Of a stretch of 64,000 nt of DNA, positions 24,101 to 52,985 are shown in pieces. The first letter of the stretch is position 1, and the number at the start of each line of letters is the position of its first letter. The DNA is from Liolophura sinensis (taxonomy: Eukaryota > Mollusca > Polyplacophora > Chitonida > Chitonidae): NCBI RefSeq assembly GCF_032854445.1, contig NC_088303.1:34727501-34791500 (forward strand), written 5' to 3'. The position numbers were made by a program, and so were the translations under genes. The notes beneath the pieces are model-generated. The model had not been told where the DNA came from. It saw only the letters and a list, made by a program, of their open reading frames with translations, and ran no database searches.

Positions 24101-27100
24101 ATATCTTGAAACAGTAAGGATTTTACACAAGGCAACAGTATGCTTGTCACTTTCTAATAAAGAAAGATGTCAAGTTTGAATATGTTTAACCAGATCTTGT
24201 GCCCATTGATGTCTCCAGAAGACTCATATGTATTTAAGACTGAACTCATATATATTCAACACTGAGGCCACCCCTAGACATCTAGCAGAAAAATCCTACT
24301 TTCAGAGACAGTGTTGTTTATAAATTGCTGACCTTGAATAGTTTGGCATTTGAATGTGTTGTAAGATGATTATTCCAGTACAGCTTCAACAAAAGGCAGC
24401 TGTCTTTTGGACTCTTCAACCCTATAATTTTAGGACTGTTTTTATTAGCAGTTAAGAATTCGCGGTGTTGTCGTTTGTAGGCAAATTACCCAAGAAGATT
24501 TTTAGTGACAATCAAGTTTGATACTCTTGTGCTTGTACCCAATCTGAAACAGAAGTTTCATACTCTGATACTCTCCGCTCTCTTGCTTGCTTTACATCAC
24601 TGCCACCACTAGCAGGTTTGGTACAGAAATCTAGTAATTCTTGATATATATATATATATGTATTATTATTATTTTTTTTTGCAAAGAAAAAAAATGTTTT
24701 CACATTTCCTGTGTGATGTTCCTTGGTCTATACACACAGTTTGAGATGTGACATTATAACCATTCATTGATGTCCTTTTGCAACTCAACATCGATTTGTG
24801 ACGTTTTAAAATAAATGGGATGATAACCGGTATATAGATTTATTTGATTTGATTGGTGATTTACACCTTACTCAGGAATATTTCACTTCTACGACGGTGA
24901 CCAGCATTATGGTGGGAGGAAATCCATTGTAAAGAATATAGAAGCTCATTTATCATCTTATGAATTATGTCTTGGGGTGGGTTTGAGTGTTAAATATTGC
25001 AAACATTAGTATTTTGCTGGTAGTTTGTCTAAACACAAAAAATAATGCGATGTTGAAAGATGTGCATGTAGCTGTATTGTACCATAGCATTGTGACGTCG
25101 TTGCACTGGGATGTGGCTTTGTTGTCATGATGAAAACGGCATATTGCCTTTGACTTGCACCAGGATGATGCAGTCAGTCAAAGGGCATAATATCTCTCAC
25201 TTTTCACAGATGTATGCAAAGACATTAATTCTCTTGAAATTAAGCATATAACTGTGTGGGTTTCTGTTCAAAATCAAATTAATACTGACAGCTATATCAC
25301 TGTCGAGAGAAAGAGACAGAATGGTTATTGTGGACCACCAGTATCAGGTAGTTTTGCCACATTGCATAAATCTTTATCGTGTATTATTTGTACAGTCTGA
25401 GACTGCCCAGGATGAGAGCGCTCCAGAACAGTAGTTACCTCCCTTTCTGTGGGAGTGTATACAGCCATTGGTAAGCCAGAAAAGAATTACTGTTTACTCC
25501 TTCTCACCATGCACACCGTATGCTGATCAGTGTCTAACGTTCACCTACTGTGATCAGCTGCCAAGACTAATCATAGCACCTGTGATTAACTGACTAATCA
25601 CAACAGATGTACATCCAGTTTCTGTAGTAGATGCACATGCTTATGTTGTAAGAATTAACATACAGTATTTCATTTAGTTGTTCACCATGATTATTGTAAC
25701 TTTCTGAACTATTTTATTTTATCTATTAAACAAAAAAGTAACTTCATGGAAGAATTGAGAATTTATTTTTCGCTGATTGCTTTAGAATTTTTCATTCACT
25801 TAATACCGCTGTTATGTGATGATGTAAACAATTTTCAGTGGATTGTTTCATAAGATTTTGCTGCCTCCTAAAGTGTTTTAAAAGGCTTAAGTTGATGCTT
25901 TAATTATACTTTTCCCTCTTTATAACAAACTTCATTACAACATGCACTTCTATATAGCATGGCCGCTTTTGTGCCCCCCTCCCCCCAAATTTTTCACAGT
26001 TGTTGATAACCGTGATGATGTGAACACACTTTCACAAGTTTCAGTGAAGATCGAAACCTTCAGATGTTTAAAATTCTTCTTAACGTAGAAGATTGATTAT
26101 CATGTAATTGTTAAATAATATTGTACTAATGTGGCTAACAAGTAACATTTAACATCACACTCTGTTCCCATGCTATATATGTCCCGGGCTATCAATAGCT
26201 GACAAGATTCATACAACATGAGGGGCCTCAGTGGCTCAGTTGGTTAGCGCGCTAGCGCAGCGTAATGACACAGGAGCCTCTCACCAATGCAGTTGCTGTG
26301 AGTTTAAGTCCATCTCATCCTGGTTTCCTCTCCTGCTGTAAGTGGGAAGGTCTGCCAGCAGCCTGTGGATGGTCGTGGGTTTCCCCCCAGCTCTGCCCGG
26401 TTTCCTCCCACGATAATGCTGGCTGTCGTCGTATAAGTGAAATATTCTTGAGTACGGCATAAAACACCAATCAAATAAATAAATAAATAAATAAATAAAT
26501 AAATCATACAACGTGATGCCTCATGGTAGGCAGATTTGTCCCCCAGCAGTTGTGTTTTCCCCCAACAGCCATATTGTCATGAGGGAAAGGCTCGCGAGTT
26601 TCTCATCACATGTGACTTCATTTTACATGATTAAATTCAAACTGGATAGTCTTCATTGCTGCACTGTGTACTCATGTGGTGTTGGTTGTGATGAGGACCA
26701 AGGGGAGATAATCTGTAAGTTTCATGTGCACAAAATTACCTCCCTTGGTCTCTTCAATGCTTTAGTATGCATATGGTTAAACCAGTTTTAAGATGATGGT
26801 TTGGACGCATTTATATCGAGATAAACTGATCATAAAAACATCGCCAAAAACATTCCATCTGACTGTAGCCAGATAAGTTTTATGGATCATATGACTTTGC
26901 GACAGTCATTAAAACCAATTAGCATTCATATCACGTATGTTCTGTTTACACACAGATGGCAATAGCCGAGCTAGTTGATGATTAGTCATATTCGAAGCAG
27001 ATTTACATGTTGAATTTTTTGTTGCTTGTTTTGTACCTTATGGCTACTGTGCTTTCAACCATTTGTTATTTAGAAGATGCTAAAAAGATAACTAAAAACA

Positions 27101-31209: not shown

Positions 31210-35429
<4,220 letters not shown>

Positions 35430-36494: not shown

Positions 36495-36898
36495 ATTTAT
36501 TGCTGGCTTCCTCTCCGGTCGTATGTGGGAAGGTTTGCCAGAAACCTGCGGATGGTTGTGTGTTTCTTCCGGGCTCTGCTCGGTTTCCTCCCACCATAAT
36601 GCTGGCCGCCATCGTATAAATGAACTGTTTTTGAGTACGGCGTAAAACACCAATGAAATAAATAAATTTATTTGATCGGTGTTACTATGCTGGCTTCCTC
36701 TCTGGTCGTAAACTCGCCACGATATGGCTGAAATAATGTCGATGTGGCGTTAAGCCATCATCATTCATTCTGGTCGTAAATGACAGTGTCTGCAACAACC
36801 TGCTCTGCTCGGTTTCCTCCCACCATTATGTTGGTCACCGTCGTATAAATGAAATATTCTTGAGTAGGGCGTAGAACACCATTAAATAAATAAACAAA
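36495..36898 (+). mobile_element. Two SINE (family A) 3' fragments in tandem
   Basis: First fragment 36495-36666 (GCTGGCTTCCTCTCCGGTCG to AAATAAATAAAT). Second 36690-36898 (GCTGGCTTCCTCTCTGGTCG to AAATAAATAAAC) interrupted by about 60 bp of other sequence. Both lie in the inferred first intron of lectin-EGF-PAN copy 1. Confidence 0.75.
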
Positions 36899-37923: not shown

Positions 37924-38163
37924 TGGGGCCTCCGTAGCTCAACTGGTTAGCGCGCTAGCGTAGGAGCGACCCAGGGGTCTCACACCAATGTGGTCGCTGT
38001 GAGTTCAAGTCCAGTACATGCGGACTTAATCTCCGGCCATATATGGGAAGGTCTGGCAGCAGCCTGCGGATGCTCGTGGGTTTTCCGCCGGGCTCTGCCA
38101 GGTTTCCTCCCACCATAATGCTGGCCGCCATCGTATAAGTGAAACACCAAATACATAAATAAA
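37924..38163 (+). mobile_element. tRNA-derived SINE (family A) behind a TA array
   Basis: Head GGGGCCTCCGTAGCTCAACT, B box GTTCAAGTCC, body GGTTTCCTCCCACCATAATG, tail AATAAATAAATA; the TTCTTGAGTACGG segment is deleted. Adjacent to the TA microsatellite ending at 37904. Confidence 0.85.
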
Positions 38164-38704
38164 TAACAAAAATGAAAGTTAATTTTAACAGAAAACTCTG
38201 TTCGTCTGACTGATGCTAGAATCTATTTTGCTGTTGCAACAGATTATTATGTTAAATGTAACTCACATATTCTATTAAGTCAACATAAAGATCTATTAGA
38301 CTAACAGGATATCATTTTGAATATGACACATGCAGTATTATGCTATAAAATAACAGAATACATTCTGGCATCATTCAGACAACAGACTTTCTGTTAAAAT
38401 TAACACATTAATTTTTTTGAGTATTTTTAATAGTGCAGTCTAATTTACCTTATACTGAGTCTCTTGTGACAGCATTCAACACATCTGAATTCCCGTGCCC
38501 ATCATTGGTTGACTTTTAGATGTTTTAGTACAGCTCAAATTCTGATGATCTACTGAACAAAAAACGGATAAGCAGCATAGACTTCTACAAAAACACTTGA
38601 TACCTTTAGTTTAGGATTATAATAACACTGATACAGTCGTTAACATGTGTGTTGTATGTTTATGTTGCCATATTCCCCTTTTTCAGGGTAATAAAGTTGA
38701 GATC

Positions 38705-38915
38705 GTCAAAGTTCATTATTATGACTATTGATTTATACAAACGGTACTTTAAGCCGTTCTCAAGAAAGTTTCGCTCATACAACGGTGCTCGGCATTTTGG
38801 TGTGAATAAAGCGGGCAAAGCACAGTGGAAATCCAGGGCGATTCCACAGGTTGATGGTAGACGTACGACCGCAGAGAAAGCCAGCATGAGCTGGACTTGA
38901 ACTCACACCGAGCAT
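38705..38915 (-). mobile_element. SINE (family A), diverged
   Basis: GTTCTCAAGAAAGTTTCGCT…CATACAACGGTGCTCGGCAT…AAGCCAGCATGAGCTGGACT then TGAACTCACACC; head truncated. About 170 bp upstream of the copy 1 lectin-like exon. Confidence 0.65.
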
Positions 38916-39083
38916 ATTTTCAAACGGCATATCATATAGCATAGCAAAGCAAGAGGATCCTTAATTTTCGATGAGTAACTGGCCTATATTTTACTACATG
39001 CCATTGACACATGTAAATATCAAACCAAACATGTAAGTTACTTGTCATTGCACCAATCAGTCAAAATGTTATTTGTACTACAG

Positions 39084-39800
39084 GTCTATGGTGTCTCGTA
39101 TGCAGTCACACGCCCGTTCCCACTAGGCTCTGGCCGCTCACTGAAATCACCTGTGGTAAGGAAGTGATTTGGATGAAGGACGCCGAGAAGGCGAGCTTCT
39201 TGAAATCAACACCCACATACAAATTGGAGGAACCGGGTCTCGGGTATAATGCACTTAGTCTCGATAATAATTCTGTGAACGTCACGTGGAACATGTCAGA
39301 GAAGGAAGTCAACAATTACGAGATCGAAAAAGATCATCCAAAAACAAAGAGAATGTTGATGGCTTTGTTCTACTGGGATCCCAAGGTTGATGCGGAATTC
39401 TTAAATTACAGATCCACTAACGGTTTTCAGATACACGTGTATACCAAGGCGGGCAGCGTGTATGTTGCTGGAGAAAATGGAATTCTACCTGTACATGATA
39501 TTATTGAATTCGAGGGTCTCGGTTGGTATACCGTGGCTATTCGTTGGAATAAAGGTCAAATTGAGGTGTACTTTGTAGAAGCAATAGACGGGGAAGAAAA
39601 AGGGAAGAAGAGAGGAGAGGTGAAGGCGGAGCATTTGTACGACAGAGACACGGTGGAGGAGCCAGGGACACTGACGGTCGGGCCGATACAAGGTGGGGCA
39701 GTCTGTTGTCTGAGGTGGTACGTTGACGAGTTTGACGCTACGCACATCGCAGATTCTATGAAGGAAAACTGCCGAAAACAGAATTATTGGACCTCTCAAG
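39084..39800 (+). CDS. Lectin-like (ConA/LamG-type) exon of copy 1
   Basis: 717 nt, acceptor GTACTACAG, donor CAAG|GTAAGA, phase 1 at both ends. About 97% identical to 45366-46020 by my manual count (21 differences in the first 655 nt), then abruptly divergent over the last roughly 60 nt. It has an extra cysteine (ITCGK, where copy 2 has ITDGK). NVT at the NVTWN motif is a potential N-glycosylation site shared by both copies. Confidence 0.85.
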
Positions 39801-42800
39801 GTAAGACTCTTTTTTTCAAAAATGTCTGTTGATATCAGATCAAATTCTTTAATTTCATTAAGTCAGAAGTAAAATATCCACAAATAATTAGCACACTGGA
39901 AACGTTTTTGTTCGTTTAAGATCATGACAGCACCTGGCCATATTTCAGTCGAAAGCAGGATACTTTTTCAGAATTATCATATTTTATTATTTTAATGAGA
40001 TATCATCGAATAACATGTAGAACAAGATGACAATAGTGTACAAATGGCCAGTGTGAGTCGAGGCAGCCATCGTCAGAATTTTATCCAATCGAAGCTGTGA
40101 TGTAGTTCCATGAAGTGACATGATAACACAGAACTACTGCATAAGACATCATCTTGAGATCGTTTAAAACGATTTAATTACGTGTAGCCGAAGTGCCACT
40201 TCGGGGCAGGTCTGTATCATATACTGACCAACACGGACGTGAAATCAGTTAATTTACAAGGCGTGAAATATTCAACGACGGTATCACAAATTATGTCAGA
40301 CAGTAGTATACTGTCTCGGGCCAAACCGCATACATCTCCCCAAATGCATTTTTGTCGTTCATTTTAGGGTTTAGTCAGCAGTTTTTAAATAACAAATATC
40401 AGTCAGTGCAAAATTCATTAGGGAAGCCGAAAGTTTATGGGCACGAGAAGACGGCATCTCACCGGACAACGCTTAAAATTAATTAAATCTTAATTTAATT
40501 ATATATCTTTTTTTCGCTGAATTTATTACGACTGAAGAGTTTAAAAGCCCCGCGGACAAAAGCCCCTCGATCAGTACTAAGCATATATGGTAGATGACAT
40601 ATGTTGTTTGCTTGTCTCAGAAAACTCGAAACATTCTCCCTGAAGCGTCGTTTCAGATTTTATTACACGTTTGAAGTAAGTAGAACCCCTTCTTACTTGT
40701 ACAAATTCCATGTATTCTAACCGTTTTGTGACGGTTAAGAATCGGAAAGAGCTATATATATGCTAGACGTGTACAGAATGCCCGATCTCCATTCCAGGCT
40801 TATCCGAAAACTAAACAAGCCTACAAGTATTGTATACAATTGCTCTTTGGCAGCTTGTGTAAGACCTTTTTTCTCTGTTCTATGAACGAATCCAGGACAA
40901 AAGCCCATGCGGAGAAAAAACCCGTTAAGTGTTTACTATAACAGATCTAACAAATTTAGATTATTGAGACATTTGCACACAGTCATTTTTGTTTTAAGAT
41001 GTTAGGCTATATAGAAAACTATATTTTATCACTTGGGCCTTCATCGCCGAAGTCCACAACTTTTATCTGCCATAGGCAACTGCTCAGACTATTATACGGA
41101 AACTACCTTCGACGTTAGATAGCCAGAGTAAACGTGACGTCCGTTTGCTCTCGATAATGGAGACGTGCTGAAGTTGTCAAGACGAAGTTTCACTAAACTT
41201 TTACTGGGTTGAAAAACAAAATCTAAAAAATATGTAAAGCCGGTCTAAGATGCTTTGAATGGTAGTCTTTCAGTGGACGTAAAATTTTTTATTGTTTTTG
41301 GATTGTTTTCGCTTTTTTGGTAAAAACAGATGTGGGTCGTTTCTCGTGGTCCGTATACAGGTGGGTAAAATGATCACGGAATAAATGTTATTATCGGTGA
41401 TCAGGATTAATTATAGTGACACATTTTCAAGGCAATCATGTGATTGTGAAATCGACTAACTAATAAACATTATTAGTGCTGAGGGAGCGGCACAACGACA
41501 AAGCTTATGTATTTGCTAATTTGCTATTTGATATTGCAGAAACGGATCCTTGCCGCTCAAGACCATGCAAAAATGGTGCTGTTTGCGCATCTCTAACAAC
41601 TGCATCGGACAATTATACTTGCACTTGTCGACCTTGGTTCGAGGGAATCAACTGTGAAAAGAGTTAAGCATTTAAATTATCAAAGTGTTATATGATGGAA
41701 ATGGAAAAGATTATCATCGGTGTTTTAAGCTATCGCATTTAAATTTATTTTGAAATATTTATTTATCTACTTATTTATTTATTTACATGAACACCATACT
41801 CAATAATTTTTCACTCATACGACGTGACGATCAGTTTTGTGGGTGGGTTAAACTGGAATGCCCTACGGAAACCACCACTCTTTTGCTTTCTCGTGTGTGA
41901 TGCACAGATATGCAGGTCCTCAAGGAACGTTAGAGCAAGGCAACACAAGCAGTGAGAGCGGACAAATCTATACACATTCCCTGTCCACAGTCGGGTTTGA
42001 AACCGCACCTCGTGAGTCTTTGCCAAGAAATAAATTTAACAAACACATTAAACAAATAAACGGGAAGGTCAATTCACATTTTTTTCACGCTTAGCCACTG
42101 AGAACAAATTGACATGGCTTATAAAAATTATACATTGCTGATTGTGATTTTACAGAAACATGAAGTAAGAATGTGATCTGCAAAAATAAACACATCTGTC
42201 TCACGTGCTGTTTGATTAGACGTACTAAATAAACTTTAGAAATGACTCACCACGTTTTTTGAGGGACCTCGCTGATTCAGAGGGTTGAAGAACTGGGTCG
42301 CTGCGACTTCCAACGCTTGACCATTGAGACTGAACTCTCCGCGCCAGGGACTTTGTCAGATACCTGCCGAAGGTCGGTGGTTTAATTCAGGCACTCCGGT
42401 TTCCTCCACTCATAAACCTGACCGTGCCGTCATACAAGTTAAAAATTCTTAAGCACGGTGTTAAACATCAGTCAAATAAATTGATTCATTGTGATGCTGA
42501 TTTTCTCCCACACTCTCTATACCGTCTTCCATGAATTAGATATACTCCACTCTTTAGGAAAACGAAATCCATTTTTGCCAATATTTACTCCATCAGATGT
42601 AAAGTTACATCCTGACAGCTTTTATTAGACACTATAAAAACCATGCATCGCATTTAACCATACTATCGCTTCTTTCTAAGCGTTTATTATGCATTTGTTG
42701 AAAAGGGCGCAGGATGGCCAAACAAGGCTTCAGGTATGTGGGCCAGACAGATATGGCGACTATGGGGAGGACAATGTTGATCGGCGAAAACCTAACAGTG

Positions 42801-42959
42801 CGAAGTCAACTTGACTGCAGCAACCGATGTCTTTGGCTTGATATGTGCATGTCGTTTGCATACGAGAAGAAATATAAACTATGTTCGCTCTATGAAGACA
42901 TCTTCACGGGTATCGGTACCAATAAAGACTGGGCGAAATATTTTGTGGAGACCTGGTAG
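39084..42959 (+). CDS. Secreted ConA/LamG-like + EGF + PAN protein, copy 1
   Basis: Tandem paralogue of the gene at 45024-50018. Supported exons: a lectin-like exon 39084-39800, an EGF-like exon 41540-41662, and a PAN/apple-like exon ending at 42959. The lectin-like exon encodes 239 residues with LWPLTEI near the start, a beta-sandwich signature FEGLGWYTVAIRWNKGQIEVY and paired cysteines in CCLRWYVDEFD. The EGF exon has six cysteines in EGF spacing (C-C-NGAVC-YTCTC-GINC). Odd points: the EGF exon runs into TAA at 41665 if not spliced, and the best acceptor before the PAN exon (AG at 42711-42712) is out of phase; only the weak acceptor GAAAAG at 42705 keeps frame. The signal-peptide exon is uncertain, with a candidate at 36205-36244. 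With that exon and the weak acceptor the sum is 1134 nt, divisible by three. Probably secreted and carbohydrate- or matrix-binding; family assignment is from fold-like motifs only. Confidence 0.7.
41540..41662 (+). CDS. EGF-like exon of copy 1
   Basis: Acceptor GATATTGCAG; residues ETDPCRSRPCKNGAVC… YTCTCRPWFEGINCEK with six cysteines in EGF order. The donor AAAAGA|GTTAAG is phase 1 and aligns with the donor of the copy 2 EGF exon. If unspliced, TAA at 41665-41667 ends the protein after Ser, giving a form without PAN. Confidence 0.75.
41756..42016 (-). mobile_element. SINE-like fragment, strongly diverged
   Basis: ATTTATTTATCTACTTATTT, ACCATACTCAATAATTTTTC, ACTCATACGACGTGACG and a GGGTTTGAAACCGC B-box-like segment. 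In the intron between the EGF and PAN exons of copy 1. Confidence 0.55.
42265..42485 (+). mobile_element. SINE family C copy
   Basis: GAAGGTCGGTGGTTTAATTC, GGTTTCCTCCACTCATAAAC, AAAATTCTTAAGCACGGTG, TTAAACATCAGTCAAATAAA. Related in its last 60 bp to family A but with a different body; similar pieces occur at 55965-56190 and 60925-61070. Confidence 0.6.
42706..42959 (+). CDS. PAN/apple-like exon of copy 1
   Basis: The open frame to TAG at 42957 encodes MAKQGFRYVGQTDMATMGR…, then CSNRCLWLDMCMSFAYEKKYKLCSLYEDI, with cysteine pattern C…C…C…C as in PAN/apple modules and clear alignment to the copy 2 exon (KQ-x-Y-x-R, NR/CQC, C-SF-Y, LCSLY/LCTLY). The 5' boundary is uncertain: AG at 42712 gives the wrong phase and AG at 42705 gives the right one. 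Confidence 0.65.
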
Positions 42960-45023
42960 AAGAGGAAGTTTGACTTGAAGATACGTAATATTACAAAATG
43001 GACAAAGTGGTGGCAAATTTGCATTGCTTATATTATACGGCTAGGTATTTTTTTCTTTTATGCACGCGCAAAGTTTGTACAATTATTTGTTAATGGTGAC
43101 TTCAGCTATATCTAGATGTCCAGCGAATTGTAAATTATGTAAAAGTATACCAAAGTGTGAAACATTATATAGACCTATCACCTAAAACATCTGGCCGCAT
43201 TTGTCTTTTTAAAGTTTGTGTTAAACTGTAATATGCATTTTTTTAAAAATCACTTGAATGATAATGTCAGTATGTGTACCTGATTGCATGCAGTTTATGA
43301 CATGGCAACGTGTCATTTCAGTAAGGGTTTACCAAGACAGATATGCCTGTGCAAAGTCACCTGGGCTAAGTAGGGCCTCCTGGAGTTTCCTCTAACAAAG
43401 CTCTCACAAAGCTACGCCAAGCGCATTTACCATGTTGACATATCAGTGATTTGTTGCCATGGGCGTATTTTGAGATTGCTTCATAAAGGATCCGTTCTAA
43501 AACAACGTGCGCAACTTTGCGACAGGCGTAAATGTTTTGTAACACTTGTGGTAATATGCGCACACTTTGTAGAACGAGTTCCAGAGTATATTTGTTGAGT
43601 CCAATTCACGACAGGCTGATTTCATTGTGCATTTCCATATAGAGTAAAACTATTGTCTCATAGGGAAATGGGCATAAAGGTTGTTGACACCTGCGTGATT
43701 GCGCTTGAAACTGTCAGCTGTTAGCAAAGTAGTAAAAAGTACTTGTCTACATATTTAAAAAGATCATTGTCAGACATTTCTGGTGATATGTAATGTATAT
43801 TATGAAATAATTTAATGTTTAGATAGCTTTAAGAAACAAAATTTTTACCTATCAAATATATATGATGTGTTTAACCTCCCTTTCTACTTCCTTTCGCCAT
43901 AATTTCTTAGCACAGTTGTTATTTCTTTCACGACGACAATCATAATTTAACAGTTGTTTTACTTTCAAATTTCCCTATTTGACTTTACAGCAATGTCACC
44001 ATTCTCCATTTGTTATGAGAGTGGGTGCAAATACTCTGATAATTAGGTGCATAAACCATAAACATGTCTGACGTCATATGATACATTCAGATAAATCAAA
44101 TGATCAAATAAAGAAATGAACAAATAAAGTTGAAAAAATAAAACAAGTGCTCACATGATTTTTCAATCATATACTGAAAGATCAATATACATATCCCAAG
44201 AAATGTATTTGCCAAAAAAAAAATCATTTCCAATAAGTTCTGTTGTTGAAAAGACACAATAACAGTGAAACATATTGTTTATACGAAGAAGCAAGATCTT
44301 AACTTGTTAGTTTACAGTAGTTTATCACAAATGAAAGCTATTCTCTGAATGGGTGGATATGTTGTGAGGAGAGGTGAATTGCTGTGTGTGTATTTCAATT
44401 ATGTTGTGGATGCTATAACGGATTTAATATTTTTTTAAATGTTTTTTTTTTTAAATTCAAGTCCTACTTGGGATTTCGTCACCTCGTCCTATGTATCAGG
44501 AAACAAGGCTAAACACCCTGGGTTGAGTGAAATGTAAAAACAATAAAAAGTGCTTTTGTTGCCGCTGGCTGACCCAAAGCACGCATGTTAAAGGTATACG
44601 TAAAATAATAAAATATACATGATGAATTAGATGTGTTGTCTGTACATTCGTTGTTTTGTTTGACGAATTAGTTTGCGGTTAGGCAGTTCAAGGGATATAC
44701 CTCTGTGTTGTTCTCTGAAGGTAAGTTAAAAGCAATAAGTCGATTAAAAGCCCACTTGTAGAAACTAGCAAATGCATCTTTGTTTGGCTTAGCTAAAGTG
44801 CCATCGACTGACTTGCATGGTCTTGTGTAAGAGCAGCTTGTTCGTTGCGATCAGGAACAGACTTCTGTATATGCAGCTGGGTATGATTAAGTGCTTGTGG
44901 AATTTCAAACACTATTGTCATTGGTATTCGGAACAAGTCAAACAGAAAAAGGTGTCCTCTTCGGGGACTTTGAATTGTATAAAAGCATATAACCTCAGCG
45001 ATGTCCAGTGTTTGATAAAGCAA
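42960..45023. other. Intergenic spacer between the two lectin-EGF-PAN genes
   Basis: About 2 kb of AT-rich sequence with no recognisable exon or SINE. AATAAA candidates occur near 44105 and 44124. The last few hundred bases must hold the copy 2 promoter; no clear TATA box was seen. Confidence 0.45.
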
Positions 45024-48000
45024 ATGGAAAGAATGCTCGTGCAACGTGCGTTGATCTTGTTTCTGGTGTCAGGTGAGTATTTCAGAACAATGAAAATAAT
45101 ATAGTAAAAAAAAATATAACAAAAAATGTGGAAATAAAAAAAGGGCGATCTTATTCCTTCAAATTTAAATATCCCAAAAGCTTCGATTACAGTTTAACAG
45201 CGAAGTACGTAAAGCTAATAAACTGACATATCTTAATATGATTTAAGAACCAGCTGCAGTCAGCTATCCTCATTTAATGCATACATCTGATAAGGGAAGT
45301 CAGTGAAACTGTGAGTAAATTATTAATCCAGCAGTGTGCAGTTAAAATGCTATTTTGTACTACAGGTCTATGGTGTCTCGTATGCAGTCACATGCCCGTT
45401 CCCACTAAGCTCTGGCCGCTCACTGAAATCACCGATGGTAAGGAAGTGATTTGGATGAAGGACGCTGAGAAGGCGAGCTTCTTGAAATCAACACCCACGT
45501 ACAAATTTGGGGAACCGGGTCTCGGGTATAATGCCCTTAGTCTCGATGATAATTCTGTGAACGTCACGTGGAACATGCCAGAGAAGGAAGTCAACTATTA
45601 CGAGATCGAAAAAGATCATCCAAAAACAAAGAGAATGTTGATGGCTTTGTTCTATTGGGATCCCAGGGTTGATGCGGAATTCTTAAATTACAGATCCACT
45701 AACGGTTTTCAGATACACGTGTATACCAAGGCTGGCAGCGTGTATGTTGCTGGAGAAAATGGAATTCCACCTGTACATGATATCATTGAATTCGAGGGTC
45801 TCGGTTGGTATACCGTGGCTATTCGTTGGAATAAAGGTCAAATTAAGGTGTACTTTGTAGAAGCAATAGACGGGGAAGAAAAAGGGAAGAAGAGAGGAGA
45901 GGTGAAGGCGGAGCATTTGTACGACAGAGACACGGTGGAGGAGCCAGGGACACTGACGGTCGGGCCCATACCAGGTGGGGCAGTCTGCTGTCTGAGGTGG
46001 TACGTTGACGAGTTTGACGGTTCGCACATCGAACATTATATGAAGGAAAACTGCGAAAGACAGCATTTTTGGGAATTAAAAGGTAAAGTCTTTGTTTGTT
46101 ATTACCCACTCATGCATTCAAAAACGGGACGTATAAACTATTTTCATGCCATTCCTAAAAAGATAAACTCGAGTTTTATATATCTTGCACCCCCTGACAA
46201 CTATTTCACATGCAAAGTGAAAGAATTCCAGAATTATGTTTTCTTTGTAAGTGAGAAAAAATGAAGTCGAGATGTATTTCACCAGATATATTTCGCTTTA
46301 TCTCGCAGTCGTACATACCGAAGACCAGTGACAAAGCCCCTTGTTTTTATCAGTCATGTTGCCTTGGCTGAAAAGACGAATCTAACACAATCACTCACTT
46401 ACTGCCTGACTGCGATGGGGTCTGATATACTTCCACTAGTGGACAGCTTGAATGTAAACTATTCAAGCCCCTTGAGTGGAAGGCCTATGTGATTAGCCGA
46501 AAGTATCCCGAGCTGCGAGATATAACTATGAAACAATGCAAGACAAATTCCTGGTATTTTTTTAATTAGCCCCTGCATGAAGCCAGAACTCGGGATTGGT
46601 AGTTATAATTCGGAATTCCTTTTACGACTTCATAGTTTTTATTTTAAAAGTTATCGAAATAAGCGAACACTCTTCTTTCAGTGCCAGATGCTTGCGAGAT
46701 GAAGCCATGTCAGCATGGAGGCACGTGCGGGTCTATCAACGCCAGGGATTATTCATGTCTGTGTCGGCCTTTGTCTAAGGGAGAGAACTGTGAAACAGGT
46801 AAAGCATATTACAGCCTGTCCAGTACGTGGTGGTATCTGGTTACCCGATCTGCAACATGACAACCGAGGCAAACGCCATGACCATGATAGTATGGTCACT
46901 TCGCGCCTCTGTCTCGACTCTGTTCAATGAGCCACAGGGACACTGCTGGCTTTACACAGGTCAGACATAGGCCTACTTTTTCGCTCTAAGTCCATAGCAA
47001 TAAGTTTTGCCCCACCTCAGAATGTGACAAATCACACATCTCGAATCTTGATTTGTGTTCTGTCTTATCTCAACCCGAAGCACACACGTTCCTGGCTGCC
47101 CTCATGAGGTAGAACCTAACCAAACCAGTAACATTTTCATGCAGCTCCATCCGCCATCATTTCGACGGTGGCATCACCGGAGTAGGGCTCAGACCCCCGT
47201 TACAACTTCCGTTTTTTGGAATGTAATTCTGTGTAATTCCTCACTGTCACTCCCTAATACCCCAGAGGGTTTATGTTTAATACTGACATAAAACAGTGCA
47301 CTTCCACATGAACTCACGGTCACTCCCTAATACCCCAGAGGGTTTATGTTTAATACTGACATAAAACAGTGCACTTCCACATGAACTCACGGTCACTCCC
47401 TAATACCCCATTGGGTTCATGTTTAATACTGACATAAAACAGTGCACTTCCACATGAACTCACGGTCACTCCCTAATACCCCATTGGGTTCATGTTTAAT
47501 ACTGACATAAAACAGTGCACCTCTACATGGACTCGCAGTCACTCCCTAATATCTCAGTGGGTACGATAGACCTCTACATGACCTCACTGTCACTCCCTAA
47601 TACCCCAGTGGGTTCATGTTTAATACTGACATAACACAGTGCACCTCTACATGGACTCACGGTCACTCTCTAATACCCCGGTGGGTTCATGTTTAATACT
47701 GACATAGCAAAGTACACCTCTACATGAACTCACGGTCACTCTCTAATACCCCGGTGGGTTCATGTTTAATACTGACATAAAACAGTGCACCTCTACCTGA
47801 ACTCACAGTCACTCCCAAATATCTCAATGGGTTCATGTTTAATACTGACATATGGCATGATAGACCTCTACATAAACTCACTGTCACTCCCTAATACCCC
47901 AGTGGGTTCATGTTTAATACTGACATAACACAGTGCACCTCTACATGGACTCACGGTCACTCTCTAATACCCCGGTGGGTTCATGTTTAATACTGACATA

Positions 48001-50018
48001 CCACAGTACACCTCTACATAAACTCACTGTCACTCCCTAATACCCCAGTGGGTTCATGTTTAATACTGACATAAAACAGTGCACCTCTACCTGAACTCAC
48101 AGTCACTCCCAAATATCTCAATGGGTTCATGTTTAATACTGACATATGGCATGATAGACCTCTACATAAACTCACTGTCACTCCCTAATACCCCAGTGGG
48201 TTCATGTTTAATACTGACATAACACAGTGCACCTCTACATGGACTCACGGTCACTCTCTAATACCCCAGTGGATTCATGTTTAATACTGACATAACACAG
48301 TACACTTCTACATGAACTCACTGTCACTCCCTAATATCTCAGTGGGTACTTGTTTAATACTGACATACCACAGTACACCTCTACATAACTCACTGTCACT
48401 CCCTAATACCCCAGTGGGTTCATGTTTAATACTGACATAACACAGTACACCTCTACATGAACTCACGGTCACTCCCTAATACCCCAGTGGGTTCATGTTT
48501 AATACTGACATAACACAGTGCACCTCTACATGGACTCACGGTCACTCTCTAATACCCCGGTGGGTTCATGTTTAATACTGACATAGCAAAGTACACCTCT
48601 ACATGAACTCACGGTCACTCTCTAATACCCCGGTGGGTTCATGTTTAATACTGACATAAAACAGTGCAACTCTACCTGAACTCACAGTCACTCCCAAATA
48701 TCTCAATGGGTTCATGTTTAATACTGACATATGGCATGATAGACCTCTACATAAACTCACTGTCACTCCCTAATACCCCAGTGGGTTCATGTTTAATACT
48801 GACATAACACAGTACACTTCTACATGAACTCACTGTCACTCCCTAATATCTCAGTGGGTACTTGTTTAATACTGACATACCACAGTACACCTCTACATAA
48901 CTCACTGTCACTCCCTAATACCCCAGTGGGTTCATGTTTAATACTGACATAAAACAGTGCACCTCTACATGGACTCGCAGTCACTCCCTAATATCTCAGT
49001 GGGTACGATAGACCTCTACATGACCTCACTGTCACTCCCTAATACCCCAGTGGGTTCATGTTTAATACTGACATAGCACAGTACACCTCTACGTGAACTC
49101 ACTGTTACCCCATAATGCCCCTGTGGATTCATGTATTCACAACCCGTGAACCTTTAATTTATATTTATTTATCGCGTTTCTGTAACCTCTTTTCGGGAAA
49201 ATGATTAAGTTACAGATAAAATGTGGCAGCTTAAAACAAGCCCGTATAGTTCATGCCGCTATGAACATGCCCTGTTTCAGCTGTCACAAGATTTCCCTGG
49301 CCATGATAATATTGGTATCTTCTTGACTGAAGAGTGCATAACACGAATGAGTAACGTCATAGATGAAGCCACTGCGAAAGTATGGATCCCTAAGATCAGA
49401 GGGTCATTTTCTCAGCTTAGTTTCCACATTAACCTCTCTGAGTCGTTACATTCACAAACCTGGAACTTGGTCCAGTTGCGTTTGCTGCATGTCCTCAAAG
49501 TGTAAAAAAAAAATCGTGTGATTTAGACTCCCAAACAAATTGTCGGTCGCCGTTTAATGGTACAATCTTCTTTATTTCAGTGCAACAGTTTCACGAGTTT
49601 ATCTTTTTCCCGACGATGCCGAGTTTTAGGTTAGTGAATGGAAGAGCGCAAATCTGTATTTCTGTAAGCTATCCTTGGAAGAATGAAATACATCTCAGAT
49701 CTAGTCTCGGTTATACTGGGTCTGTAGGCCCTATGATTTGCGGTTGTTTTTTATTCCACAGAACTATATGTGATCAAGCAAGACTACGTACGAATGGGGC
49801 CAGCCAATTTGACGGGCAAGCTGGATCCCATCGCTGGCTGGGTCAACTTCCAGGCAAAGAATGCAAGGGAATGCAGCTGTCAGTGTATTCATCAAAATGA
49901 ATGCAAGTCATTTACATTCGACACCCAGCTGTGTACATTGTATGATGGAATAGTGCAAAACTACACTGGAAACGCCACTCAGTACTTTATCGAACGAAGT
50001 GTGATTGGGAAAGTATAG
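45024..50018 (+). CDS. Secreted ConA/LamG-like + EGF + PAN protein, copy 2 (379 aa)
   Basis: Complete four-exon gene: 45024-45072 (signal peptide), 45366-46082 (lectin-like domain), 46682-46798 (EGF-like), 49762-50018 (PAN/apple-like); total 1140 nt including TAG. The start MERMLVQRALILFLVSG leads into LWCLVCSHMP, giving a hydrophobic signal sequence across the first intron. The lectin-like domain spans about residues 30-255, with W-Y-T-V-A-I-R-W near its middle. The EGF module has C-C-HGGTC-YSCLC-GENC spacing. The PAN exon has ECSCQCIHQNECKSFTF and LCTLYDG. All introns are phase 1, typical of shuffled extracellular modules. Such proteins are secreted and often bind glycans or matrix in mucus, shell matrix or immunity; the role here is not known. 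The last intron is 3.0 kb and mostly a 73-bp satellite. It is the better preserved of the pair. Confidence 0.82.
45366..46082 (+). CDS. Lectin-like (ConA/LamG-type) exon of copy 2
   Basis: Acceptor TTTGTACTACAG, donor TTAAAAG|GTAAAG, phase 1 at both ends, 717 nt like copy 1. The open frame continues into the intron to 46264 by chance. Differences from copy 1 are mostly amino-acid-changing (about 14 of 21 by my count). Confidence 0.85.
46682..46798 (+). CDS. EGF-like exon of copy 2
   Basis: Acceptor CTTCTTTCAG, then PDACEMKPCQHGGTCGSIN…YSCLCRPLSKGENCET, donor ACAG|GTAAAG. Six cysteines in EGF spacing. About 40% amino-acid identity to the copy 1 EGF exon, far lower than the neighbouring lectin-like exon. 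Confidence 0.8.
47247..49104. repeat. 73-bp minisatellite/satellite array (about 26 units) with higher-order structure
   Basis: Monomer of 73 bp beginning TCACTCCCTAATACCCC and containing GGGTTCATGTTTAATACTGA. Units of 73 bp with 75-bp and 51-bp variants run from 47247; the final part (to about 49139) is degenerate. Located in the last intron of lectin-EGF-PAN copy 2. The block 47590-47883 (four units, 294 bp) recurs at 48469-48762 with a single difference by my reading. Confidence 0.95.
49762..50018 (+). CDS. PAN/apple-like last exon of copy 2
   Basis: Acceptor TTTTATTCCACAG. The frame reads ELYVIKQDYVRMGPANL… WVNFQAKNARECSCQC… and ends FIERSVIGKV then TAG. NYT and NAT give two potential N-glycosylation sites. 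Cysteine spacing suits a short PAN/apple module. No AATAAA within about 400 bp; the nearest candidate is near 50711. Confidence 0.75.
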
Positions 50019-52715: not shown

Positions 52716-52985
52716 GGTCCGGTGTCAGTATACTGTATAGGTGTACTGATCGGTGTACAAAGCATACTGTACAGGTGTACTGATCGGTGTACAAAGAATA
52801 CTGTACAGGTGTACTGATCGGTGTACAAAGAATACTGTATAGGTGTACTGATCGGTGTACAAAGCATACTGTATAGGTGTACTGATCGGTGTACAAAGCA
52901 TACTGTATAGGTGTACTGATCGGTGTACAAAGCATACTGTATAGGTGTACTGATCGGTGTACAAAGCATACTTTGTAGGTGTACT
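52716..52985. repeat. 34-bp minisatellite (about 7.5 units)
   Basis: GGTGTACTGATCGGTGTAC plus AAAGCATACTGTATA repeats every 34 bp (for example GTGTAC at 52741, 52775, 52809). It is open on the minus strand in all frames, producing a spurious 160-codon frame. The unit resembles part of the SINE-like sequence at 63330-63370 (GGTCTACTGTGACTGGTGTC). Confidence 0.92.

Follow-up and report, generated by a model that had tools for sequence, protein, structure and literature searches.

Two adjacent genes in a 64,000-nt stretch of the Liolophura sinensis genome, the whole of which is referred to here as the window, were found to share one nearly identical exon, while their other exons are highly diverged. 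This similarity, which is confined to a laminin-G-like exon, is probably the result of nonallelic gene conversion, and repeated conversion is likelier than a single event. The confidence placed in conversion comes from two lines of evidence: the contrast at synonymous sites and the edges of the tract.

Gene models and domains

The exons of the two genes, designated A and B, are listed in Table 1. Four exons make up the reading of gene B, which would encode a predicted secreted protein of 376 or 379 residues. Its spliced frame is open to the TAG stop, the splice sites are of the usual kind, and the introns are in phase 1. An alternative start for its first exon lies at 45033, and a comparable candidate exon is present in gene C, a paralog described below. 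Gene A has the same exon order, and its frame is open from the laminin-G-like exon (also called the lectin exon) to the TAG stop. The splice sites of gene A are weaker than those of gene B, namely the donor GTTAAG after the EGF exon and the acceptor GAAAAG before the PAN exon, the latter placed by phase and by alignment to gene C. Searching upstream of gene A for an ATG, a hydrophobic stretch, and a donor gave several candidates for exon 1, no single one of which was picked out. Much of the intron between the EGF and PAN exons of gene B is occupied by a minisatellite (47240–49004) with a 73-nt unit, in rows of 4.4 and 19.6 copies, and also with a 294-nt period.

Table 1. Features of genes A and B, with positions in the window.
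Feature	Position	Strand	Evidence or remark
Gene A, end of intron 1, acceptor CTACAG	39058..39083	+	Within the recent tract common with 45339–45365
Gene A, laminin-G-like exon (likely), homogenized core	39084..39737	+	21/654 differences from gene B; dS 0.06
Gene A, laminin-G-like exon (likely), diverged 3' tail	39738..39800	+	16/63 differences; donor GTAAGA at 39801
Gene A, EGF exon, phase 1 in and out, donor GTTAAG	41540..41662	+	Pfam EGF E 3e-4; 42% amino acid identity to gene B
Gene A, terminal PAN exon, stop TAG	42706..42959	+	Pfam PAN_1 E 8e-6
Gene B, putative exon 1, signal peptide start, donor GTGAGT, phase 1	45024..45072	+	ATG, hydrophobic stretch, and donor located by search
Gene B, end of intron 1 inside the recent tract	45339..45365	+	blastn edge and alignment
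Gene B, lectin-like exon (core 45366–46019, tail 46020–46082)	45366..46082	+	Alignment to the gene A exon
Gene B, EGF exon	46682..46798	+	Pfam EGF E 1e-5
Gene B, terminal PAN exon, stop TAG	49762..50018	+	Pfam PAN_1 E 8e-8

An ATG at 45347 in gene B is in frame with the lectin exon, and a start at this position would make the 26 intron nucleotides shared with gene A coding. It was rejected as the main model for the following reasons: the copy in gene A is one T shorter, which puts the ATG out of frame; gene C has no in-frame ATG between the nearest upstream stop and the acceptor; and the upstream candidate signal-peptide exons of B and C resemble each other.

The PAN exons of genes A and B match Pfam PAN_1 at 26.1 and 32.4 bits, respectively, both above the cut-off of 21.4. 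The EGF exon of gene B scores 25.7 bits with Pfam EGF (cut-off 21.5), and that of gene A scores 21.3 bits, 0.2 under the same cut-off (E 3e-4); the gene A exon can be aligned, cysteines included, with its counterparts in B and C. No Pfam Laminin_G match was obtained with the lectin-like exons of A, B, and C, and their sole Pfam match was a weak one to fn3 in B (E 0.04). Paralog D, also described below, matched Laminin_G_3 (E 4e-4, 21 bits, under the cut-off of 27.6) and Laminin_G_2 (E 5e-4, 21.1 bits, under the cut-off of 22.9). The A and B exon is therefore likely to be laminin-G-like, a homology traced by way of C and D. A structure prediction run on both window sequences gave a pLDDT of 32, which is too low for use, and sequence searches of solved structures at E values up to 10 found nothing.

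Extent of the homogenized tract

The lectin exons of A and B are equal in length at 717 nt, and 37 of the 717 positions differ. The best change-point falls at 39738, with 21 differences in the 654 nt to its left (the core) and 16 in the 63 nt to its right (the tail); none of 20,000 permutations was as strong. The original prediction, made from the letters of the sequence, had put the differences at about 21 of 655 nt, and the recount gave 22 in the first 655 nt and 21 in the first 654. A sliding-window comparison had been proposed as a check, and it returned a sharp island. In steps of 50 nt along the A-B diagonal, identity was 92–100% across 39101–39750, 68% in the step holding the acceptor, 74% in 39751–39800, and 10–38% in the remaining steps of 38601–40250.

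At the 5' end, the similarity stops at 39058 in gene A and 45339 in gene B, which is 26–27 nt before the acceptor and in agreement with the distance of about 25 bp first estimated. The neutral sites inside the tract share a recent age: dS is 0.06 at the synonymous sites, and the 26–27 intron nucleotides carry two substitutions and one indel between A and B. Beyond the tract, a blastn comparison of A with B (plus strand, E 1e-6, matches >60 nt) matched dispersed repeats only. The introns 3' of the donor scored 19 when compared with each other, against a null 95% point of 20, which is not significant. When the whole 609-Mb assembly was searched at the DNA level with the A exon and with the B exon, in a search that scores its best candidates, the matches listed were at these two places. 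The exon-confined homogenized tract is real and its edges are sharp.

Divergence of A and B compared to a third paralog

A protein search of the genome located gene C at 32.37 Mb on contig C9, the contig that carries the window at 34.73–34.79 Mb; gene C has the same lectin-EGF-PAN order as A and B. In the lectin core, A and B are identical at 205 of 217 amino acids (94%), compared to 78/198 for A-C and 80/198 for B-C (39–40%). The corresponding counts in the EGF domain are 16/38 for A-B, 18/37 for A-C, and 20/37 for B-C, and those in the PAN domain, aligned with MAFFT, are 18/79, 28/79, and 37/84. In EGF and PAN protein, A and B are about as distant from each other as from C, or more so. Two comparisons run counter to this and put A-B ahead of A-C. 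EGF nucleotide identity is 57% for A-B, 54% for B-C, and 44% for A-C, and pairwise alignment of PAN gives 25/68 for A-B and 28/79 for A-C, with the lower alignment score for A-B. The claim that the EGF and PAN exons of A and B are highly diverged was confirmed, with 42% and 23–37% amino acid identity, respectively, the range for PAN covering both alignment methods. Between A and B, dS rises from 0.06 in the core to about 2 in EGF and reaches saturation in PAN. Since A-C and B-C are about equally similar in the core, and since A-B identity in EGF and PAN lies below that of A-C and B-C, the similarity of the core is not explained by domains evolving at different rates.

A GENECONV-like scan of A, B, and C, with 565 variable sites, was consistent with these comparisons and with the conversion that such a scan had been proposed to reveal. 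It found an A-B fragment, extending over the core and into the tail for about half its length, with a score of 254, compared to a maximum of 53 in 5,000 shuffles. Nothing was found for the A-C pair, whose score was reached by 2,220 of the 5,000 shuffles. The B-C pair gave a small PAN fragment of 12 sites (score 8, shuffle maximum 7), which was taken to reflect a closer relation of B to C in PAN.

In trees of the core, A+B was the sole accepted grouping, and the p-AU of the other two was 0.0004. In trees of EGF+PAN, A+B was the least favored grouping, yet it was not rejected (p-AU 0.096, rising to 0.197 when the tail was added); the case therefore rests on distances and not on topology. Paralog D entered these tests by its first EGF alone, and paralog E, which is broken, was left out. 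Raised GC3 in a tract is described as a criterion for gene conversion (PMC2720389). GC3 was 53.5% in the cores of both A and B, which is only slightly above the lectin cores of C and D (48.5 and 50.5%); elsewhere it was 52–62% in PAN and 35–58% in EGF.

Substitutions in the core and the 3' tail

In the core, 8 of 136 synonymous sites and 14 of 518 nonsynonymous sites are changed, for a dN/dS of about 0.45 that does not differ significantly from neutrality (Fisher p 0.10). About two thirds of the differences change amino acids, as had been estimated at the outset (14/22 by codon and 13/21 by a later count). Because about 79% of the core sites are nonsynonymous, this replacement share is below the neutral expectation, and the suggestion that the binding domain is diversifying found no support in the core.

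The original prediction had also placed the last 60 nt or so of the exon among the highly diverged parts. The tail is indeed diverged, at 16 of 63 positions, but its position outside the tract is doubtful, since its third positions look like those of the core. By codon position, the tail differences number 6, 8, and 2, each of 21, and 14 of the 16 fall at positions 1 and 2. Third positions differ at 2/21 in the tail, compared to 9/217 in the core (p 0.25) and 68/117 in EGF+PAN (p 3e-5). At positions 1 and 2, the tail has 14/42 differences, compared to 109/234 in EGF+PAN (p 0.13) and 12/434 in the core (p 9e-10). The third base was kept in 10 of 12 changed codons in the tail, 5 of 26 in EGF, and 22 of 69 in PAN. 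A neutral tail of the same age as the core would be expected to hold about 3 nonsynonymous changes, whereas 15 were observed (p 2e-6). Had the tail shared the age of EGF and PAN, neither its third positions (p 5e-6) nor its synonymous sites (p 1e-4) would have been kept.

A clean old flank would not show this pattern, nor would a clean recent one, and three readings of it remain. In the first, the tail was shared recently and has since been under positive selection. The second is weak constraint at an intermediate age, the tail having left the tract later than the rest (fit p 0.18), and the third would be a patchy tract end. Within the tail alone, neither the excess at positions 1 and 2 (p 0.06) nor the contrast of synonymous and nonsynonymous sites (p 0.43) is significant. 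For this reason, and because the limits of the tail were set by the change-point, the tail figures are suggestive. Seemingly caught between homogenized and free sequence, the tail might show how a conversion island shrinks.

Origin of the shared exon

Under repeated nonallelic conversion, A and B would be old neighboring paralogs of one secreted-protein family, whose plan would comprise a signal peptide, a laminin-G-like domain, EGF, and PAN, with phase-1 introns. Everything in the two genes except the laminin-G-like exon would have diverged to saturation or nearly so. The exon and about 26 nt of the preceding intron would have been copied between the genes, in a tract limited to where they still share homology. 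Conversion would have recurred from a time when the exons were still similar, as in concerted evolution. The island of conversion would have shrunk meanwhile as the introns, and later the 3' tail, dropped out, and the last event would date to a dS of about 0.06. Selection for a common binding domain in A and B may have favored this outcome.

The exon is bounded by an exchange point at either end, and this pair of points fits conversion and does not fit one crossover. When the lectins of C and D were used to query 36–45 kb, neither an additional lectin exon nor a remnant of one was matched. The two exchange points, the presence of a resident homologous exon, which the common architecture leads one to expect, and this lack of a relic match together point to nonallelic gene conversion. 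The original prediction had preferred conversion or replacement of one module to simple tandem duplication, and this preference is supported by the sharp tract, the synonymous contrast, the yardstick provided by gene C, the permutation test, and the lack of a matched relic. Gene conversion is reported to act mainly above 80% identity, with an efficient minimum of about 200 bp in yeast (PMC3924818). The EGF and PAN exons have by now fallen far short of the level of about 80% identity under which conversion becomes rarer, so repeated conversion is likelier than one event bridging exons that had already diverged to this degree. At the 21 core differences, gene C agrees with A at 5 and with B at 7, carries a different base at 6, and is gapped at 3; with the bases of C split 5 to 7, conversion could have run in either direction. 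Several observations run counter to conversion: the failure of the EGF+PAN trees to reject A+B, the two measures that put A-B ahead of A-C, the mixed pattern of the tail, the small difference in GC3, and the 5' edge, which lies 26 nt inside the intron, where old paralogs are not expected to be alike.

This edge in nonhomologous intron would fit a single replacement without long homology, in which break repair or replication template switching copied about 740 nt, made up of the exon and 26 nt of intron, from one gene into the other and the resident exon was removed. Ordinary conversion would also have been hard if the resident exon had been as diverged as the EGF and PAN exons, with a dS of about 2 or saturation. 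Such a replacement must nevertheless have hit both exon borders and preserved the phase, it is at odds with the lack of any matched relic or second exon, and the tail looks only partly old; we consider it quite unlikely. Another possible explanation is an artifact of assembly or consensus, with one lectin exon built from the reads of the other. Although heterozygosity of a few percent could mimic a divergence of 3%, the flanks of A and B differ on both sides, the reading frame and splice sites are preserved, and the same exon contains a diverged homologous tail. A misjoin would also require two chance junctions at exon borders, and an artifact is thus very improbable.

A chimeric gene, made by unequal crossover that joined the 5' part of B to the EGF-PAN end of an old paralog within the lectin exon, would explain the change at the 3' side by a single breakpoint near 39738. 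However, the sequences 5' of the A and B exons are unlike beyond 26 nt and the upstream regions have no clear translated match, so a chimera needs a second exchange point and is highly unlikely. Plain tandem duplication followed by uneven selection, with a strongly conserved lectin exon and fast change elsewhere, agrees with the open lectin frames and the adjacency of A and B but has next to no probability, as it is already refuted by synonymous sites (0.06 compared to about 2 and saturation) and by introns that should align at about 6% neutral divergence and do not, and as the 39–40% identity of the gene C lectin core indicates that the domain is not highly conserved.

Other members of the family

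Protein searches of the genome found at least three lectin-exon places with A as the query, at least four with C, and at least three PAN places with C. Paralog D, beside gene C, came from the search with C. The resulting family count is a lower bound, as these searches failed to list the PAN exon of D and the whole of E, both of which were found by reading the neighborhood. No match to further members below E 0.03 was obtained in the 110 kb to either side of the window (220 kb in total).

Genes D and E are neighbors at C9:32.39–32.40 Mb, near gene C, and have a lectin-EGF-EGF-PAN order with two EGF exons each. Gene E is broken: its EGF2 contains stops, and the frame changes within both the lectin and the PAN exon. 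Third positions differ between D and E in 59 of 89 codons of the lectin block, where the 89 aligned codons are part of the exon, and in 28/39 codons of EGF1, compared to 14/38 in EGF2 and 29/89 in PAN, the last in the frame of D across the indels of E. The contrast between lectin+EGF1 and EGF2+PAN is significant (p 6e-8). This suggests a mirror case to A and B, in which modules may have been exchanged separately; in a pair of this age, alignable introns are not to be expected, and the limits of a tract would be invisible.

It is conceivable, if rather doubtful, that the exon of A and B is a shared cassette under selection, which would supply one putative binding domain to two secreted proteins with different EGF-PAN bodies, in an invertebrate arrangement similar to paired receptors or decoys. 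The hinge to EGF would then be under positive selection, and the modules of the family would be exchanged singly, with D and E alike at the EGF2+PAN end and old at the lectin end. Should selection be what maintains the likeness of the exon, it would represent a binding domain that both proteins must share, comparable to vertebrate paired receptors. As the history of one exon differs from that of its neighbors, gene trees of the family built from whole proteins would mislead.

Comparison with known systems

The probable conversion in A and B is of a kind known from another gene family. In mammalian CEACAM pairs, the N-domain exon region is described as the most alike in all pairs but one, and similarity barely enters the introns, with one dog pair having a longer tract (PMC2832619). 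The likeness to A and B is that the exon of the ligand-binding domain is the most similar, which is credited to gene conversion and recombination (PMC2832619, PMC7042247). The present case differs in that it concerns a laminin-G-like exon and predicted secreted EGF-PAN proteins; the likeness covers the anatomy of the genes and does not extend to opposed receptor partners, a ligand, or a pathogen.

A second parallel is provided by exons 26a and 26b of newt Nav1.4, where nonallelic conversion is limited to the functional part of tandem copies (PMC8476164). In that system, conversion is mainly between duplicated exons within a single gene, with one codon-scale case involving paralogs, and it is tied to toxin resistance (PMC8476164). 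In contrast, a whole exon is involved between two genes in A and B, with no known selective agent. Nonallelic conversion in general resembles the present case in having a tract of several hundred nucleotides between tandem paralogs on one chromosome (PMC3924818). The difference is that the rest of A and B is far below the 80% identity given in that source, and earlier repeated events are therefore assumed. Among the matches listed in a literature search on exon-limited conversion, no title named this gene family, and no paper was found that joined laminin G, the PAN domain, EGF, and molluscs.

Other sequences in the window

Two plus-strand exons of a cytidine deaminase-like gene (31991–32263 and 33445–33615) lie upstream of gene A; the exon at 33445–33615 is over the cut-off for Pfam dCMP_cyt_deam_1, and the exon at 31991–32263 is below it. 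A dispersed repeat of about 80–165 nt occurs in at least eight places in the window, inverted copies included (36501–36667, 36802–36896, 38019–38144, 33002–33154, 26320–26484, and others). One further copy, at 38726–38911, ends about 170 nt upstream of the gene A lectin exon. A tandem array with a 34-nt unit is found at 52730–52985, where 7.5 copies are present with 97% matches.
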